Assembly (NCBI GenBank): GCA_036939355.1
Contig: JALLAP010000629.1
Location: forward strand, 1 to 11,345
From: Thalassiosira profunda
Lineage: Eukaryota; Bacillariophyta; Thalassiosirophyceae; Thalassiosirales; Thalassiosiraceae
Length of the DNA stretch: 11,345 bases
Direction: 5' to 3'
The notes under the pieces were generated by a model. The model was given only the letters and a program-made list of their open reading frames with translations, was not told the DNA's origin and ran no database searches. Shown here in pieces: positions 854 to 10,715 of the stretch; the first letter of the stretch is position 1; each line of letters begins with the position of its first letter. The position numbers were made by a program, and so were the translations under genes.

Positions 854-898
854 ATATCCCACCCGATCTCAACCCGGAATCTAGTTCCGGATTGGGTT
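854..898 (+). repeat. Left terminal inverted repeat with outer palindrome
   Basis: ATATCCCACCCGAT (854-867) matches the right end exactly in inverse orientation. The next block, 871-890, contains the arms CCGGAA and TTCCGG around TCTAG and is identical over 20 bases to the reverse complement of 6283-6302. The palindrome here is slightly decayed on its inner side (GGATTGGGTT in place of GGGTT). Such subterminal palindromes are plausible transposase binding sites; that role is inferred. Confidence 0.75.
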
Positions 899-922
899 TC
901 GCCTAAATGGCTATTTTAGCGA

Positions 923-944
923 ACCCGGAATCTAGATTCCGGGT
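923..944. repeat. Left inner palindrome, perfect 22 bp
   Basis: The 22 bases are their own exact reverse complement, with core CCCGGAATCTAGATTCCGGG. It lies about 30 bases inside the outer palindrome, mirroring the two-palindrome arrangement at the right end (6223-6245 and 6280-6302). This supports a shared end architecture rather than a chance inverted repeat. A dimeric or paired binding site for the transposase is a reasonable inference. Confidence 0.8.
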
Positions 945-1186
945 GTTTAAACCCATTGGGCGTACGTTGGAGAAAATTTGAATGTAGGTAGTACGAGTTC
1001 CTACGCTCTATTCTCTTTCAGGGCAAGCGTTGGAAGAAAGCAAGGTGCGCAAATGTAATAATTTAGACTGGTGTAAGAAAACAGGTAAATCGAAGTGCCG
1101 CCGACATTCGTGCTCACGACAAAGCAGGACCGGCGCCATTGCAAAGACGACCCAACCAACAATACAAGCACGAATACACGCGCACG

Positions 1187-4100
1187 ATGCCGAAGAAGGT
1201 ACATGCAGGCAAGACAGATGGCGGCGGCGGCAATGTCGGCGGCCACGACGGCCCACCGCCGGCGAGGGCAAAGAGGAGCAGCGGCCGAACGAAAATCGCG
1301 GTAGGCACAAAGGTGTGGTACATCGACCAGACCAGCGAAGAGAACAAAGTGCACCCCGGTGTGGTCATTGGTTGCAACAAAGGCGCGGTCAAACCGTACC
1401 GCGTCAGGTTCGACGGCGACAAGAACGATGAGGAGAATTACACAGCCGAAGCGATTGCAAAGATGGTTGCAAACGATCCGAGCGCCGCGGCCGTCAAGGA
1501 GGAAGGCAGCAACAATGATGCCGGCGCCGGCGCCGCCGAGAAAGAAGCTCGTACGACTGCCATCGCCGCGGACGCCACGGCCGCCGCCGCCGCAACCAAC
1601 AATGCCGACGCCTCCGCCAAGCCGGCGGTCGCCGCCGACGCCTCAAAGAAGAGGGCAGCCCCTGCCGCTGGCAAAGAAGAGAAGCCGCAGCCGCAGCAGC
1701 CGCGGCAGAAGAAGAGCAAGAAGAAGAAGAGAACGAAAGGTGCATCAGCGATCGCCGGCAAGAACATCAAGAGCGGTGCGCCGCCGAACATCGATAAAGC
1801 CATCCCGGACGCTTTCAAGGCGTGCACAACTGGTTGGAAAGAAGTGCCTCTGCAGCAGCAGCCCGTTACGATAGCGTCGCAGGACGAGTACCTCGATCAG
1901 CACCTCGGGGCGAGCTTACTGGACACGTACACGCACATTGCCGATAAGATGGGCGCACATCTCAGGCGGCAAGGACTCGAGGCAAATGCGGTCAACGCCC
2001 TTACAGAGCTGGTCCAATCTAGCACGTTTGAAGAGCTCGCATCGCATACGACTGTCGAGCTAGTATCGAAAGGAAAGGATCCAATCAATGGCTACGAAAT
2101 GAAGCGTTTCTTTGCAACAAAGCTGTTACGCAGCCGGATCAACATGCCTACTGATCGCACGTGGACCATCATGGGGATGATAGCGCAAGCCCACAGTTTC
2201 ACCTTGATGGAGTCGGATAGGTTTAATAGCGTCTTGAAGTGCCTCAGAGGATACGACGTCAGTTCGCGAACTGGCAGCAACGAGGAAGATACCTGGATGA
2301 GGCGCAAAAGCATGCTCCGCAATATGAACCCTCTTGAAATCAAAATGTTTCAGAGGTCGATGTCCATACTCTTCAACACCAAGAACGGCGTCTTCGTGAT
2401 TGATGACGAATTGATATCCTCCCGAGCAAAGGATGTGGAGACAAAGACCGTTTCAGACAGGAAGGCGGGTAAGGAGGGCCCTGTCGCTGACTGTGTTGCG
2501 GACTCAAGAATCGGCACTCTGCACGGCATGAGACTACGTTGCGCTGGAGAGTCGCAGCACGAAAATGTCAAAGCTCTCATGGCAACAAAGCCGACGATCA
2601 CCAAGGCCGGCCACATGCCCAAAGTGAACTTCGACCGCGGCTATGGCAAGGAGTCCTTCGTGGCTGACGACAGCATTGCCGACAGCGAGGCTCTAACGAT
2701 TTGCAATGGACAAGGGTCTCGCAATCCTTTCGTGCTCGAGGCAGAGATGGAGGAACAGGTGAAGAAGTGGCGTGCTCACAAGAACTTCAAGGTTGTTGAT
2801 CCCAAAACTAACAAGGCGTCGGTCGACGAAGACAAAATCATACAATGCAAGGGCGTCTTCCTTGACTGGGTTATGGAGTCCTCCGATCTACTCGGCTCAG
2901 AAGTACGAGTGGCCACAAAAGACGCCCAAACCGAAAAGGGAGCAGTGGTACCAATCACAGCGTATTGCGTTCGCGACGTGTTTGACAGGAAGGTTGAATC
3001 GAAAGATCTGCGGTTCTTTGCGACTGGCGAGAAGGCCCGCGAAAAGCATGACTTGTGGGTTGCCGTCGCCAAAGAGAAGTACGTTGTCACTGCTGACCAT
3101 TTGTTCTCGCATAAGCGAGCGTCGACAGGCCGTCTCCGCATGGAGGAGAGGCTCAATCAACAGTGCAGGCCAATGACATCTGGTCAGCGGTGCGCTGATT
3201 GGTTTACGTTAAAAGGCTTCCTTCTCTCTGGTACAATGGCTGGCAAAGTGTTTGCGAAATCAAAGCAGATCGAGAGCGATCTTTTCATGGACGAAGACGA
3301 CGTTGACGACGATGTGCTTTCGAAACTTTTCGATGAGTGTCTGACATCGTGGTTTGGGCGCCATGGCGGGGGGACGGCAGCAATGGCAGAAGGAACCGCA
3401 AACGAGGCACCAACCGCCGAGAAATTTGCAACTTACTCTTGCGTGAACGAGTTCTACGACGTTGGGCTGTTGCAATCGAAGGAGCACGAGTGCATTGGCG
3501 TGTCCCCCGATGGAATTGCAAAGGTGGAGATTCCTGGCGACGACTACAAAGACCTCGAGCCCCAAGATGCCAGTGTCGAAATCAAGACTCGCGTTGCAGA
3601 GGCTACCATTGCACAGGCTACGGCTGCACGGCAAGAGCACGGCGACGTCGTGGTGTGCGAGTACGATGATGATGTCTTCAAGGCTTGCATTCCTGCGCAG
3701 AATCGCAAGCAAGTTATCCATCAGGCGCTTGTGACTGGATTCAACTGGGGTGTTTTCATTACTGCCAAGGTGGAGGAAGATCAGGGATCAATTGTGCAGG
3801 TAGTGTTTGTGGAGATCGACGATGCCGAGAAAGCATCATACGCTGAAGTATTGTATCGGCTCGCATTGCCTCTATGCCAGTGGATATCAAATGCGCCATC
3901 CGTTGAGAGAGGATACATCGAGGACGACGACTTCCCGTCCTGGGCGAACGAAGAAACGAAGAAGATCGTCTCATCGCGATACCGCGTGTGGAGCGCTCTC
4001 TACAAAATCGTGAAGAAAGATGGGCCAATGCGGCCGCTCAGCATGTTCAAGCACTGGACGCAATTCGACTACAACAAGGGCAAATGGGGCCTGGACAAAA

Positions 4101-5029
4101 GCACCGAGCATTACCTCAAAGTACGTGTACAATCGTCGGTGGGCCTTGAACAGAAATACATCTGCCGCATGTTCGATGGTGTCGTTTGCAATACATGGAA
4201 GTACGAGATTGCTCGTACGTTGATACGGCCATACGCTGCAAAATACGCCGAGGACCACGATGGGGCGACGCCTCCGACCAGATCAATCAGAGAAAGGGCA
4301 TACGAACTGCCATTGGAAGGCTTTGTTTTTGACGTGGCGTTGGCGTGGCTGAAAGATCTTGAGATTGAGAGATTGAGGATGGCCAACATCAGGCCGGAAG
4401 CGATAGAAGGGCTACAGCCACAGGTGCCCGCCGCGGCGTCAGGACTGCTATCCGCCGAAGAGGAAGAGATCATCGGCATCGTCGAAGCCCGCAAGGCGAA
4501 CAATACGTGGCCCATCAATAACAAACGGGCGGAGGCCTTTGCGGCAGATCCCAAACTGAACCAGCTACGTCGGTACCAATCGGATCTTGTGAGGCACTCC
4601 TACGCAATGCATGAAAAAACAAGTGGTGGTGGGGCGGAGGAGGGAACAGGCACCAACACTAAAGGTGTGAAGGATTGCTCGCTCTGTTCAACCCCAGCAA
4701 AGCAGAATCAATCGCGATACTTCTGCGAACTCTGTGTTGTGCCACTGTGCAAGAAACGGCGGTTCGATTGGGAGCAGTCATGCTTTGACGCATGGCACAC
4801 AGTGGAAGACCTCGCGGAGGAGAGGACACGACGTCAGGACCGAGTGAATGTTGAATACGAGGAGGCAAAGAGAAGGAAACGGAACCGCGCAGAGGAGAGT
4901 AATGCTGAAGCGGGAGGACAAGAGGAGAGTAATGTGGAAGCGGAAGGCGCAGAAGAGAGTAAAGTGGAAGCTGAAGACGCAGAAGAAAGCAAGGTGGAAG
5001 CAGCGGAAGGGCAAGTAGTGGGAGTGTAA
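1187..5029 (+). CDS. PiggyBac-type transposase with embedded YqaJ-like nuclease (1280 aa)
   Basis: Probable nuclear transposase of the surrounding element. Start: the frame is open from 1067, but its first ATG is at 1187, with A at -3. Residue layout: a Tudor-like segment (~36-95; VGTKVWYID, PYRVRFDGD); an Ala/Lys-rich linker with basic cluster KKSKKKKRTK (175-184); then a PiggyBac-like core. Candidate catalytic Asp: D406 in VFVIDDELI, D483 in NFDRGYGKESF, D970 in KWGLDKSTEHY. The first spacing (77) matches T. ni PiggyBac (D268-D346). The second is 487 rather than ~101, because a PD-(D/E)XK segment intervenes: QR-x3-WFTLK (~667-676), SGT (681-683), SPDG (D775), EIK (E798, K800), HQ (845-846). 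A Cys/His finger follows (C1164, C1167, C1180, C1183, C1188, C1199, H1204), then acidic decapeptide repeats. Start-stop triplet pairs at 982 and 1053, and a CAG/GTAAAT donor-like site near 1085, could affect the 5' end. Family assignment is by motif reading only. Confidence 0.8.
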   Translation: MPKKVHAGKTDGGGGNVGGHDGPPPARAKRSSGRTKIAVGTKVWYIDQTSEENKVHPGVVIGCNKGAVKPYRVRFDGDKNDEENYTAEAIAKMVANDPSAAAVKEEGSNNDAGAGAAEKEARTTAIAADATAAAAATNNADASAKPAVAADASKKRAAPAAGKEEKPQPQQPRQKKSKKKKRTKGASAIAGKNIKSGAPPNIDKAIPDAFKACTTGWKEVPLQQQPVTIASQDEYLDQHLGASLLDTYTHIADKMGAHLRRQGLEANAVNALTELVQSSTFEELASHTTVELVSKGKDPINGYEMKRFFATKLLRSRINMPTDRTWTIMGMIAQAHSFTLMESDRFNSVLKCLRGYDVSSRTGSNEEDTWMRRKSMLRNMNPLEIKMFQRSMSILFNTKNGVFVIDDELISSRAKDVETKTVSDRKAGKEGPVADCVADSRIGTLHGMRLRCAGESQHENVKALMATKPTITKAGHMPKVNFDRGYGKESFVADDSIADSEALTICNGQGSRNPFVLEAEMEEQVKKWRAHKNFKVVDPKTNKASVDEDKIIQCKGVFLDWVMESSDLLGSEVRVATKDAQTEKGAVVPITAYCVRDVFDRKVESKDLRFFATGEKAREKHDLWVAVAKEKYVVTADHLFSHKRASTGRLRMEERLNQQCRPMTSGQRCADWFTLKGFLLSGTMAGKVFAKSKQIESDLFMDEDDVDDDVLSKLFDECLTSWFGRHGGGTAAMAEGTANEAPTAEKFATYSCVNEFYDVGLLQSKEHECIGVSPDGIAKVEIPGDDYKDLEPQDASVEIKTRVAEATIAQATAARQEHGDVVVCEYDDDVFKACIPAQNRKQVIHQALVTGFNWGVFITAKVEEDQGSIVQVVFVEIDDAEKASYAEVLYRLALPLCQWISNAPSVERGYIEDDDFPSWANEETKKIVSSRYRVWSALYKIVKKDGPMRPLSMFKHWTQFDYNKGKWGLDKSTEHYLKVRVQSSVGLEQKYICRMFDGVVCNTWKYEIARTLIRPYAAKYAEDHDGATPPTRSIRERAYELPLEGFVFDVALAWLKDLEIERLRMANIRPEAIEGLQPQVPAAASGLLSAEEEEIIGIVEARKANNTWPINNKRAEAFAADPKLNQLRRYQSDLVRHSYAMHEKTSGGGAEEGTGTNTKGVKDCSLCSTPAKQNQSRYFCELCVVPLCKKRRFDWEQSCFDAWHTVEDLAEERTRRQDRVNVEYEEAKRRKRNRAEESNAEAGGQEESNVEAEGAEESKVEAEDAEESKVEAAEGQVVGV
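4892..5011 (+). repeat. Four 30-bp tandem repeats coding acidic decapeptides
   Basis: The transposase C-terminus (residues 1236-1275) consists of four tandem ten-residue units of the form EES(N/K)(V/A)EAxxx. At DNA level these are four imperfect 30-bp repeats. The units diverge at synonymous and conservative positions, so the array is not brand new. Charge pattern and composition suggest a disordered or helical acidic tail placed just after a basic segment (KRRKRNR, residues 1228-1234). Function unknown. Confidence 0.85.
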
Positions 5030-5565
5030 ATGAAAGAGGGGCGGGCGTTTGGTTCGAGGGGGAGCGGGCCTACGCGATGCAATTGCACAGTACATAATTA
5101 TCAGCACGGGACAGTCAACCCAAGAATATTATCACCGCCGCTTTGATGCCTCCGTGCACGCTCGAACGCACAACGATTTTGTATCGTCGTACGTCAACCA
5201 CCAGGCTCCGTGGTTCCTCAACCACTTTGCAAAAACGGTCTCAACGCAAGTACGGGTAACCACATTGCAAAGAGTCGAGCCCCCGCTTCCACATTGCTCA
5301 AGCGAACGCCCCCCGGGAGCACTTCCACGTCAAAGGGCGGCCGCCGGGGAGCAACATCAAGCGCAATTGTGGACGCAGGTTGGTGGATGAATCGCGTCGC
5401 GTTCCGAGGACAGCATGGGCCCTTATCGCCAAGAGTTTCAACGAACGCAATCACGGAGGAGGCGTGTGCAACTCGAGGCAGGCCGGCTGGTGCAGCGGTG
5501 CGAGGCGATCTCGAGAGCGACATCGGCTTCGGGCAGCGGTGATATCTTCTTGGACTGACTTGCGG

Positions 5566-5643
5566 TGCAATTGTAGAACGCGAGGAGCGGCGGCTCGGAC
5601 TGGCGGGGCTTGCAATTGTACATCGCGAGCGACGGCTCGCGGC
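5566..5643 (+). repeat. 45-bp imperfect direct repeat headed by TGCAATTGTA
   Basis: TGCAATTGTA occurs at 5566-5575 and again at 5611-5620, exactly 45 bases apart. In both copies it is followed by a similar GC-rich stretch (CGCGAG, then CGGCTCG). The copies differ by several substitutions and a one-base shift. It is probably a decayed tandem duplication within the element's noncoding 3' part. Confidence 0.6.
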
Positions 5644-5730
5644 CGCGCGAGAGCGATGCGGCGGTGGGCACGATGTACGAGGTCGGAGGCGAAGGCAGAA
5701 CACTTGATGTGGATACCGTGGCCTTGCCGG

Positions 5731-6086
5731 TGGACGTCAACTCGCTTGCCCGCCGGCGGCGGCTGCCGGCGATCTTGGCGCCGGTCGACGCGCGACGAGG
5801 ACACCGCGACGTGCCGCCGCGATACCGACGATAGCGGCCTTGGGCGGCCGTCGACGAGCAGCTCGAGGCGGCCGCGGAGCCATCACGACGCTAGGTGATG
5901 GATGGACGTGGTCTCGCCCACCCGCCGGCGGCGGCTGCCGGCCTTCTTCGACCTCCCTTGGCGCCGGTCGACGCGCGACGAGGACACCGCGATGTGCCGC
6001 GGCGATGCCGACAACAGCGGCCTCCGGCGGCCATGGGGGGCGGGGCGCTTGATGGGCGTCCGGAGAGCCATCAAAAGTGAGGTGAA
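5731..6086 (+). repeat. Tandem duplication, unit ~172-183 bp
   Basis: Copy 1 begins TGGACGT at 5731 and copy 2 begins TGGACGT at 5903. Both continue through CCCGCCGGCGGCGGCTGCCG and share an exact 35-base block (5775-5809 and 5958-5992). Each later contains GCGGCCT...GGCGGCC and an AGCCATCA...GTGA end. The period rises from 172 to 183 because copy 2 carries an 11-base insertion (around TTCGACCTCCC). That insertion breaks the reading frame shared by the two copies, which argues against present-day coding use. Confidence 0.8.
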
Positions 6087-6222
6087 GGTGACGTACTTAC
6101 TTAGATACTTACCGCCGTTTACTTTACGGTAGCGCTTGGCCCGCGAGCAGCAAAAAGCCGCAATAGGGTTAATGGCGTGGTGATGCACTAACTTTCGTCT
6201 AGAAGACAGAATAACCCTAATG

Positions 6223-6245
6223 AACCCGGAATCTAGTTCCGGGTT
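6223..6245. repeat. Right inner palindrome
   Basis: AACCCGGAA and TTCCGGGTT form perfect 9-bp arms around TCTAG. The 23 bases are the exact reverse complement of 6280-6302, so the right end holds two head-to-head copies 34 bases apart, matching the pair on the left. Confidence 0.8.
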
Positions 6246-6279
6246 GGCTTTTGTACCAGGCCTACGTAGTTTCTACGGC

Positions 6280-6321
6280 AACCCGGAACTAGATTCCGGG
6301 TTGCGAAATCGGGTGGGATAT
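6280..6321 (-). repeat. Right terminal inverted repeat with outer palindrome
   Basis: The palindrome at 6280-6302 (9-bp arms AACCCGGAA/TTCCGGGTT) is followed by ATCGGGTGGGATAT (6308-6321), the exact reverse complement of left end 854-867. An additional 10-bp inverted pair, TTGTACCAGG (6251-6260) and CCTGGTACAA (6334-6343), encloses this end. The second arm lies outside the presumed boundary, so either the element extends slightly further or the pair is fortuitous. Confidence 0.75.
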
Positions 6322-6538
6322 CGTATACCACCCCCTGGTACAAGGATCCAGGCCAGCCTTCCGGAGGGACTAGAGACTCCAACGAGAGAGCACTATGTAA
6401 CATGTCAGCAGCGGTATGAGTATATCATATCATCGTAACTTGACAAAAAAGTGACATGCTAGGTTTACTTGCTGGTAGCAACAAAAGCGGTGGCCGTCGG
6501 TTGGCGAGAGGTCGTTGGTGACCGTCGCGTTCCTAAGG
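6322..6538. other. Spacer after the right end of the element
   Basis: No gene is recognisable. The sequence includes GGATCC at ~6344 and an AT-rich segment around 6418-6475. There is no TTAA directly adjacent to the terminal repeat. Confidence 0.4.
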
Positions 6539-7003: not shown

Positions 7004-8281
7004 CTACGATAGGTAAGATTCGATGGCTGAAATACTTTCAGGAGATTGATGTGAACTCTCTGTTTTCATAAAGTGTAGCAATCGTTCATTATATGGACGA
7101 TAAAATTCTTCCATGAGAGATATTGTCTGGTTGTTGAACGGTTTTCTATGACTTTGAGAATTTGCTTTTGGCAATGTCTTGATTTCATTAGTAAATTCTG
7201 ACAAATGTAAAAATTTAGCCGCATCTTTAACAGAAGAAGTAGCACCAGCCTCCAATGGAGAAACTAAAAATTGACTTGATGGGAAAACGCGTAACCAATG
7301 TTCGATTATGAGTATATACAGGCCTTTCACAACAACATTGAAGTGACCAGCCTCAAAACATTCATATTCTTTCCGTCCCTCTTCTGTAAGACAAGATTGA
7401 AATTCCTCTAAGTAACGTGGTACCTCCACATCGGGATTTCCCTTCAAATTCGAGTAGGACCAATCCGAATTAACACGATTTGCAGGTCGACGTGTTCGTA
7501 GAATAATTCTGGCTTGTGGTGTAACCTCAAATAGTAATCTTGGCGTCCAAAAGTCGCCACCTGCATTCTGAACAGATGAATCGATGGTAAAGACACGGCC
7601 CCAAGACGACTGGCCCGCACCTAGAGTTGCCATTAGTTTGGGGTAACGATGCGTATACCTTTCAAGAGTCGAATCGCCACGGGGAACCTTTGCACGCGCA
7701 AGTTCATGTTTGTAACAATTTGGAGATGATGGTCGCCCATGCCAAAAATATAATTCTCCTACAGCACCATCGTTCGGTGTATCATTCGGAAGAACATCAT
7801 TATGTTGACACAAATTCAAATACAAATCAGTTGTTGCACATTTGGCCACACCTATGATGTATGCGTATGGTAGACATTTCAATTCTTTGGTTGTTGTTGT
7901 TGTATTAAGAACTTTTTCAGTCCACCAGCATGGACTTTTGAATGCGCTGTCATACTCCGTTGGTAATGATTTAAATAATGATGGATACTTTTGTTTGACT
8001 TCGAATGATGTAGCAAGATGAACATCGTGAGGATTAAATGTAGAATTGCACGGTCGAGGGGGGGGAGGTGAAGAAGAAGTGTTACCTTGCTTGTTTTTCT
8101 TCTTGAGAGTTCCGTAGGTTAAATTTTCAGGGCGATAGCTCCGGATGCTGCCAAAAAATGGAAGAAGAAGAAGAAGAAATCTGGAGGCCTTCCACGGGTT
8201 GATACAACAAAACTCAGCGTCATCGAGTTCATCATCATTTTGTATGTCTCCTGCTAATACTAATGCTCGTGCTTGTGGCAT
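7004..8281 (-). CDS. CHST15-like carbohydrate sulfotransferase (425 aa), type II Golgi membrane protein
   Basis: Predicted to transfer sulfate from PAPS to a polysaccharide or glycan in the Golgi lumen. Start: ATG at 8281-8279, A at -3; the frame is open further upstream to 8431 but has no earlier ATG. A short cytosolic tail and a hydrophobic run RFLLLLLPFFG (residues 34-44) suggest a type II signal anchor, followed by a Pro/Ser-rich stem (~69-77). The PAPS 5'-phosphosulfate loop is CLPYAYIIGVAKCATTDLY (136-154), with Lys present but Ala where PKxGTT families usually have Gly. Then come ELYFW (176-180), a 3'-phosphate motif RTRRPANRVNSDWSYS (262-277), GLYILIIEHWLRVFP (320-334) and a terminal EEFYRPYNERL (391-401), all typical of the family. 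Length and motif order indicate a complete intronless gene. Base composition is clearly more AT-rich than its surroundings. The substrate is unknown. Confidence 0.85.
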   Translation of the reverse strand: MPQARALVLAGDIQNDDELDDAEFCCINPWKASRFLLLLLPFFGSIRSYRPENLTYGTLKKKNKQGNTSSSPPPPRPCNSTFNPHDVHLATSFEVKQKYPSLFKSLPTEYDSAFKSPCWWTEKVLNTTTTTKELKCLPYAYIIGVAKCATTDLYLNLCQHNDVLPNDTPNDGAVGELYFWHGRPSSPNCYKHELARAKVPRGDSTLERYTHRYPKLMATLGAGQSSWGRVFTIDSSVQNAGGDFWTPRLLFEVTPQARIILRTRRPANRVNSDWSYSNLKGNPDVEVPRYLEEFQSCLTEEGRKEYECFEAGHFNVVVKGLYILIIEHWLRVFPSSQFLVSPLEAGATSSVKDAAKFLHLSEFTNEIKTLPKANSQSHRKPFNNQTISLMEEFYRPYNERLLHFMKTESSHQSPESISAIESYLS

Positions 8282-9039
8282 GATTTGGTAGTAAAATAAG
8301 TCTGTGGCAATCCCGGTTATGTCGCGACGTTTGAATGAGGAGGCAATAAAGAAGTGCAACAAATTGGATTTTGAGAGGACAGCAAAAGGAGAGTGTCTAG
8401 TGTCTAGATACGTGGGAGAAACGCGACTCAACCTGACTTTTTAGTCCCATTTGCTGCTTCCGCTACCAAACCGGGGCCCCACAATTCGGGCCTGGTTGAC
8501 ATGAAAAATTGCACGTAGGTTTCATTTCTGTTATTGTTTGGGCCAAAAAATCGTGTTACAGACACATTTTTGCATTGAAAGGAGTCCCGTGGGCTCGGCC
8601 ATAGTACTCCCATGCTTTGGCCCGGACCTCCCATAGACTTCAGTGACCGCAACAATACACCACCAAATACCTATACCAACCCAAAATTGCACGTAGAATT
8701 CGATTCTGAACGTTTTCAGGACTCAAATTGAGTGTGGAAAGCATAATGAAGCCCTACTTTCCCGGCCTGCATAATCTCATGATACAACCTTGAAATTTTG
8801 GTTCTGGACATTCCAAAGGCATCTCTTAGAGGGCCGAGTCCAGCCCCCATCTACTGTTTACTCTTTGCAATAGGAAGCCGAGCACGAGATGCTCATAAAT
8901 TTGTTTTGCCAATCAATGCAAGAGCTTCTACCTTTAATTCTACGCCTTTAGTAGACAGCGGCCTCGAATCGGCCATTCCATTTTTGCAATGATCATCCAG
9001 CACCTAACATGAGGTTATGTGAGCTCAAACCGTCTTTGA
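8282..9039. other. Region upstream of the sulfotransferase, no gene supported
   Basis: The first ~150 bases continue the sulfotransferase frame without an ATG and are probably its 5' UTR. A 75-codon minus-strand frame (8655-8428) begins only with TTG and has no motif. A plus-strand frame at 8798-8992 is likewise unrecognised. A 26-base imperfect direct repeat (8505-8530, 8683-8708) is listed separately. The promoter of the sulfotransferase should lie here, but I cannot identify a convincing core element. Confidence 0.4.
8505..8708 (+). repeat. Pair of 26-base direct repeats (AAAATTGCACGTAG...)
   Basis: AAAATTGCACGTAG is identical at 8505-8518 and 8683-8696. The similarity continues for 12 more bases (TTTCATTTCTG against ATTCGATTCTG), giving 22 of 26 matches with a 178-base spacing. 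Related ACGTAGGAAT motifs occur at 9285 and 10568. It looks like a dispersed short repeat or a duplicated upstream site of the sulfotransferase gene. Confidence 0.6.
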
Positions 9040-9204: not shown

Positions 9205-9234
9205 GGGGGACTTTTTTTCCTGGCTGGGGCACTC
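9205..9234 (+). repeat. Left terminal inverted repeat of the 970-bp element
   Basis: It begins GGGGGACTTTTTTT and ends GGCTGGGGCACTC. It pairs with 10147-10174 over its whole length, apart from one extra A and one extra T. Confidence 0.8.
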
Positions 9235-10146: not shown

Positions 10147-10174
10147 GAGTGCCCCAGCCAGGAAAAAAGCCCCC
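10147..10174 (-). repeat. Right terminal inverted repeat of the 970-bp element
   Basis: GAGTGCCCCAGCCAGG followed by an A run and GCCCCC is the inverse of the left end. The target copy TGC follows at 10175-10177. Confidence 0.8.
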
Positions 10175-10477: not shown

Positions 10478-10715
10478 GTATATTCGGGGGTACTCGGATA
10501 TACCTCTCTTCTACCGCGAATATACGGGAGCTGAATCGAGCCAATTTTGACCAAAATGGCTCCTTTCACGTAGGAATAGTATGTTTTTGTACCTCGAATA
10601 TACCTCCGTATGTGGGAGGCGTTTGTACCTCGAATATACTGATTTTTACATGCTAAATTAGCAATTTCCTTGCTTCGTCGCCCGCTCTTGCCGAATCAAC
10701 CTACGGCGAATATAC
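10478..10715. repeat. Cluster of six CGAATATAC motifs in both orientations
   Basis: Exact CGAATATAC occurs on the plus strand at 10517, 10595, 10631 and 10707. Its reverse complement is at 10478-10486, and a one-base variant (CGGATATAC) at 10495-10503. The first two form a hairpin: GGTATATTCG (10477-10486) against CGGATATACC (10495-10504) with an 8-base loop. The copies at 10595 and 10631 share the longer 18-mer TTTGTACCTCGAATATAC (10586-10603 and 10622-10639), a 36-base period. Spacings are otherwise irregular, so this is neither a simple satellite nor a CRISPR array. Confidence 0.8.
10538..10562. repeat. Short hairpin within the motif cluster
   Basis: GAGCCAATTTT (10538-10548) and AAAATGGCTC (10553-10562) pair over 10 bases with one bulge around a 4-base loop (GACC). 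It lies between CGAATATAC copies three and four. Confidence 0.65.

Follow-up and report, generated by a model that had tools for sequence, protein, structure and literature searches.

Transposase-nuclease gene and its relatives

The window analysed here is the whole stretch of 11,345 nucleotides from the diatom Thalassiosira profunda (contig JALLAP010000629.1). It contains one long open reading frame (ORF), from 1187 to 5029 on the + strand, which runs from ATG to stop with no internal stop and encodes a protein of 1280 aa. The gene, characterised by its ORF, Pfam matches, protein relatives, a structure model and fold comparison, lies within an element at 858-6317. This element is almost certainly an intact-looking DNA transposon of the piggyBac superfamily, flanked by ATAT and encoding one transposase, in which an enlarged insertion splits the RNase H-like core (D406, D483, D970) behind its fifth strand and carries a lambda-exonuclease/YqaJ nuclease with its active-site and 5′-phosphate pocket residues in place.

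The N-terminal part of the core carries the motifs VIDDELISSR at 404 (with D406) and FDRGYGK at 482 (with D483). The nuclease motifs QRCADWF (667), SGT (681), SPDG (773), EIK (798-800) and HQ (845-846) follow, and the third Asp, D970, is contained in YNKGKWGLDKSTE at 962. An earlier note, made from the letters of the window, had proposed a PiggyBac-type transposase interrupted by a nuclease, and the residues and motifs it named were all found at their places. D406 and D483 are 77 residues apart, and D483 and D970 are separated by 487. From the piggyBac residues D268/D346/D447 reported in excerpts of PMC7351741, the corresponding spacings are 78 and 101; the second interval is therefore 386 residues too long here, bearing out the excess of about 385 claimed before. 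Pfam placed DDE_Tnp_1_7 (PF13843) at residues 270-456 (expectation value, E, 9.5e-6) and YqaJ at 676-852 (E 9.2e-6), both above the gathering cut-off and within the single ORF. As a control from the same genome, a conventional piggyBac-like ORF on C924 matched PF13843 in a single stretch (positions 4-335, E 1.2e-28), with Asp spacings of 97 and 127 by motif assignment (VIDETIV 650, VGDSYFGS 747, NGAGVIDGI 870).

All parts of the protein are encoded on the + strand. Residues 243-401 (1913..2389) form a helical part that probably corresponds to the dimerization and DNA-binding domain of piggyBac, judging from the 6x67 fold alignment, which starts at residue 243, the model helices and the domain definition in PMC7351741. 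The first part of the RNase H-like core, residues 402-505 (2390..2701), has five strands in the model secondary structure and holds D406 (2402-2404) and D483 (2633-2635); it is covered in part by the PF13843 match, and both Asp are conserved. Strand 5 is followed by three long beta-strands, residues 572-613 (2900..3025), which appear to take the place of the three-stranded insertion domain of piggyBac when the model is compared with PMC7351741. Beyond the nuclease lies a model helix, residues 957-979 (4055..4123), with YNKGKWGLDK and D970 (4094-4096), and a C-terminal Cys-rich zinc finger occupies residues 1164-1204 (4676..4798).

The resumption of the core after the nuclease was examined with profiles. 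A profile of 27 relatives, built without the window protein, matched piggyBac in the PDB with E 7.3e-6; the family motif YnktKgGvD aligned to piggyBac YNQTKGGVD, which ends at D447 (E 0.036 for this stretch alone), and D970 stands in the column of that Asp in a 66-row alignment. With the window protein included, the profile retrieved from the PDB the piggyBat finger only (E 0.013) and the YNQTKGGVD stretch was not recovered. The post-nuclease piece of one relative, P0055, matched the final 52 positions of PF13843 with E 9.8e-5 and 22.2 bits, where the cut-off is 22.4; the corresponding piece of the window protein, searched alone, gave no match. The isolated C-terminus of the window protein matched PF13842 (zf-Tnp_2, a DDE_Tnp_1-like zinc finger) with E 2e-4 and 22.3 bits, just below the cut-off of 24. 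The finger of piggyBat (9c0f) was matched with E 0.6 by the window protein alone and with E 0.013 by the family profile, and the Cys and His residues are conserved in the family. The DDD core is homologous to that of piggyBac, and the Cys-rich finger described in the earlier note is present.

In ungapped rows of the 66-row alignment (P0065, misaligned at the three Asp, included in these column counts), the D406 column has D in 55/57 and N in 2/57, D483 is invariant (61/61), and D970 is D in 45/46 and Q in one. For counts over whole proteins 36 rows were used, the other 29 being fragments or missing one of the three Asp positions, and P0065 being excluded. The third catalytic residue is D in 35 of these 36.

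The nuclease domain occupies residues 662-876 (3170..3814), and among nuclease folds it is matched best by exonucleases of lambda type. E798 is presumably the equivalent of lambda Glu129. According to excerpts of PMC7496540, catalysis by lambda exonuclease involves Glu85, Asp119 and Lys131, and the 5′ phosphate is bound by Trp24 and Arg28. By motif, the counterparts in the window protein are E740, D775 and K800 (with E798), and W672 and K676. These positions are highly conserved: E740 in 53/54, D775 in 52/53, E798 in 51/51 and K800 in 51/52 rows, W672 in 58/59, and R or K at 676 in 57/59. The four residues E, D, E and K are kept together in 33/36 rows. Because the active-site and phosphate-pocket residues are conserved, an active 5′-phosphate-dependent exonuclease is expected. 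A nuclease fold stands between two segments that match piggyBac, by PF13843 before it and by the YNQTKGGVD447 alignment after it, in line with the arrangement proposed in the earlier note.

At least 65 relatives of the protein were found; this number is a lower bound, since scoring in each search was confined to the 7989-7992 candidates that had most words in common. The parts recur in this order in homologues whose identity falls as low as 20-30%, and the proteins with this architecture come from different organisms and different data sources. Judged from these sequences, the transposase-nuclease design is common to related proteins of distant algae and protists, the nearest named relatives being, we presume, diatoms. 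A search of the assembly for the silicon-transporter family gave no match. The idea that the gene is an artefact, arising by chance fusion of two unrelated mobile genes, nested insertion or faulty assembly, could draw on the single full copy found in the assembly. It was rejected as highly improbable because the domain order is found in many proteins of separate origin; in addition, the frame is unbroken and the piggyBac core resumes after the nuclease. Two annotated gene models among the 36 rows, P0022 without the catalytic part of YqaJ and P0063 without part of it, were counted as missing the nuclease residues; they are probably mis-spliced and were not taken as true relatives lacking the nuclease. 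In the databases, members of the family are named 'YqaJ viral recombinase domain-...', 'PiggyBac transposable element-...' or 'Transposase'. A viral structure library yielded 359 matches with E of 10 or less; among the 50 listed, many of them nameless, the names were mostly of YqaJ or phage-type nucleases, one was an IS4-family transposase of Barrevirus, and none stated the fusion. In P0009, another such transposase-nuclease protein, a Ulp1 (C48) protease domain (E 5e-10) is added at the C-terminus.

Ends of the element and comparison with known transposons

Inverted repeats were located at 854-895 and 6279-6321, with 91% identity and E 7.8e-9 genome-wide. With ATAT taken as flank, the element spans 5460 bp and reads CCCACCC...GGGTGGG. 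The left terminal inverted repeat (TIR), CCCACCCGAT..., lies at 858..895 (+) and the right one, ending in GGGTGGG, at 6279..6317 (-). The TIR begins with 5′-CCC, and such CCC...GGG ends we take to be piggyBac-like. The ATAT at 854..857 and 6318..6321, a palindromic 4-mer where piggyBac has TTAA, is the presumed target-site duplication, as indicated by pattern and sequence inspection.

Each end also carries two mostly imperfect palindromes of AACCCGGAA-TTCCGGGTT type, which lie at distances of 17-19 and 68-76 bases from the first base of the ATAT. They were recognised from inverted-repeat listing and sequence inspection. On the left are the imperfect palindrome 1, AACCCGGAATCTAGTTCCGGATT (871..893), and palindrome 2, AACCCGGAATCTAGATTCCGGGTG (922..945), whose inner 22 bases are fully palindromic; on the right are the imperfect palindromes 1 (6280-6302) and 2 (6223..6245). 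CCGGAAYTAGWTTCCGG occurs at six places in the genome with at most one mismatch, against two for a reversed control, and all six lie in the window element and a related element on C289. Because a dimer of Cys-rich domains of piggyBac binds a 19-bp palindromic internal repeat (PMC7351741, in excerpt), the palindromes are likely candidate sites for the zinc finger of the window transposase.

In the 21.8-Mb assembly the 14-mer ATATCCCACCCGAT is matched exactly at four places: both ends of the window element and both ends of the C289 element, a 373-bp non-autonomous relative. With up to two mismatches 98 places were found, against 20 for the reversed control, and follow-up was limited to the four exact ones. 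A more diverged partial relative, on C651, has a ATATCCCACC end and a palindrome whose arms are conserved and whose centre is altered; the second end of this relative was not found. ATAT was present at 5/5 ends examined (two each in the window and C289, one in C651). The pattern used in the search for ends contained ATAT itself, but the similarity searches stop at the same place. Since ATAT differs from the TTAA duplication of piggyBac, piggyBac membership is claimed for the protein. A 91% copy of the left flank (C1035) has ATAT without the element, in an AT run, which makes it weak as support. It was rejected as a true empty site, as the similarity is lost immediately past the ATAT run and the DNA beyond does not match the right flank; with the element flanks as queries, the assembly yielded no empty site. 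Among DNA of the relatives, pattern searches for further target sites gave 9 matches in viral_contigs and 27 in genome_contigs, with none confirmed in either.

Insertion domains are found in the P element, hAT, RAG1 and Tn5 transposases, and to our knowledge none of these domains is a nuclease. DDE/D transposases with insertion domains all carry them after strand 5 of the RNase H fold (PMC7351741, in excerpt), the same topological site as here. With piggyBac and piggyBat the window element shares the DDD RNase H core with its near-identical first spacing, the motif at the third Asp (YNxxxxGLD here, GGVD there), the helical DNA-binding part, the C-terminal finger, palindromic internal repeats and a palindromic 4-bp flank. 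It differs from them in the extra residues with YqaJ between the second and third Asp, in ATAT instead of TTAA, and in having two palindromes per end. The nuclease resembles lambda exonuclease, LHK-Exo and YqaJ in fold, in the active-site E, D, E and K and in the W and R/K of the phosphate pocket; unlike lambda exonuclease, a free trimer, it is embedded in a transposase expected to dimerize.

Two other DDE systems include such nucleases. KolobokE, as described in part of PMC9587614, also joins a DDE element with a lambda-exo-like PD-(D/E)XK nuclease, which there lies downstream of the transposase domain and here within the core. The C/DxxH signature and the third Glu of Kolobok were not seen: of four mostly-His columns between the second and third Asp, the best has C or D at -3 in 2/22 His rows. 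Membership of Kolobok was therefore rejected, the third residue being D in nearly every row. In ISL2EU a YqaJ nuclease is likewise encoded with a DDE transposase; according to excerpts of PMC4482050 it is in a separate ORF, the transposase is of the PHIS superfamily (PIF/Harbinger-related) and the target is A|AT|T. As YqaJ and DDE domains share one ORF here, membership of ISL2EU, with YqaJ beside a THAP-DDE transposase, was rejected as well. PMC3627910, in excerpt, refers to a DEDDh nuclease in piggyBac. No description of a nuclease inside a DDE core, or of a piggyBac and YqaJ fusion, was found in the open-licence PMC literature as excerpted; a Repbase record is possible. The parts are already in databases and the combination, as far as seen, is not recorded. 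In that literature, the company of lambda-exo-like nucleases in KolobokE and ISL2EU is known, and a nuclease within the transposase core is not described.

Possible role of the nuclease

It is tentatively suggested, as the likeliest role, that the nuclease resects the 5′ strands of the donor break and so steers its repair to homologous recombination. In such a scheme, the DDD site would excise the element by the piggyBac hairpin route while the zinc finger holds the palindromic end repeats. Excision would leave 5′-phosphorylated ends at the donor break, and the tethered nuclease would digest the 5′ strands to produce 3′ single-stranded tails. Donor repair would then shift from simple religation to homologous recombination with the sister chromatid or homologue, which could restore the element at the donor site, turning cut-and-paste into copy gain. 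The identity of the element and resection, taken as one proposal, are plausible and fall just short of probable. The wider proposal of an ancient eukaryotic lineage, with a 5′-3′ exonuclease at the piggyBac insertion site, one enzyme that both cuts out the element and resects the donor break for replicative gain, and ATAT in place of TTAA as target, is rather doubtful.

The position of the nuclease could also suggest a part in the cutting chemistry itself (hairpin opening, flap trimming or the second-strand cut at the element end), replacing a step of the piggyBac DDD site. The insertion domain whose place it occupies lines the target-DNA channel in piggyBac and touches the hairpin (PMC7351741, in excerpt), and the transposase and nuclease sites are conserved together. 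This main rival is nonetheless unlikely: the best-matching folds are of lambda type, and such exonucleases require a free phosphorylated 5′ end (PMC7496540, in excerpt). Moreover, Y962 and N963 are the motif counterparts of Y439 and N440, which contact the hairpin in piggyBac (PMC7351741), so that the native hairpin route seems to be kept in most rows of the diatom clade; Ser takes the place of the Asn in the clade with a red alga.

Elsewhere among DDE transposases, insertion domains hold DNA and are not known to be nucleases. The domain might likewise serve mainly in DNA binding or architecture, for instance in the choice of a target such as ATAT or in transpososome assembly, with nuclease activity secondary. 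The apparent use of ATAT, not TTAA, is in keeping with such a role. It is considered quite unlikely, as a pure scaffold need not retain the phosphate pocket and the E and K residues that most rows keep. A function outside the excision cycle, against competitors or in cellular recombination of linear DNA in the manner of RecE or lambda Red, is improbable. YqaJ nucleases are proteins of phages and giant viruses, and one relative, P0010, retains the nuclease residues while two of its transposase Asp are lost. However, insertion within the catalytic core and correlated divergence point to joint action of the two sites, and a scan of the main gene and of the ORF at 5380-5898, which has no Pfam match, revealed no annealing protein.

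Several observations weigh against the identity and resection proposed here. Excision by piggyBac leaves a 5′ overhang. Lambda exonuclease is a trimeric ring favouring short 3′ overhangs (PMC7496540), and the piggyBac transposase is a dimer (PMC7351741), both papers being seen in excerpt; because of these differences, ring-type processivity and long digestion are doubtful. PiggyBac itself functions without such a nuclease. One full copy was found in the assembly, with neither excision footprint nor copy-number evidence found. Pfam detection among the relatives is uneven (YqaJ in 20/27, DDE_Tnp_1_7 in 8/27, at E 0.01). K800 is replaced by E in P0008, and P0010 has N, D and Q for DDD, yet keeps all four nuclease residues. 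P0010 could be a domesticated nuclease or a decaying copy.

In the general view, it is the host that repairs the break left by excision of a DDE transposon. That an exonuclease is conserved in the catalytic core suggests that some DDE transposases control donor-break repair themselves. Together with KolobokE and ISL2EU, three DDE lineages are now paired with lambda-exo-like nucleases, each in an arrangement of its own, so the partnership may have a general purpose. If the proposal is true, a transposase that excises, resects and uses ATAT would be of interest to genome engineers working with piggyBac.

Repeats and surroundings of the element

The 3′ part of the element includes a dispersed repeat (5201-5383) with copies on C964 (91%) and C790 (86%). 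Between the gene and the right end, 5731-6032 holds a GC-rich duplication of 76 nt at 91% and 46 nt at 83%, 172-183 nt apart. The flanks 669-853 and 6324-6368 resemble repeats elsewhere (C1035, 91%; C424, 98%). The right flank starts with TATACCACCCCCTGG and recurs on C424 as a short inverted repeat; it may be another small element adjoining this one. The piggyBac-like element on C924 (2334-6284) has a 19-nt TIR, CTAGTGTCTAGCTTCTTCT, and CGTCCCGGGACG palindromes; it has CTAG at both ends, again a palindromic 4-mer, and this may belong to the TIR or to the target.

An Rfam scan of the window gave no match, and a 475-aa ORF at 7004-8431 (-) had no Pfam match at E up to 10. A perfect 22-nt inverted repeat, GAGTGCCCCAGCCAGGAAAAAA, at 9213-9234 and 10147-10168, with 912 nt between the arms, may mark the ends of a non-autonomous element. 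At 10511-10715 a 15-nt repeat occurs four times, ending in CGAATATAC.

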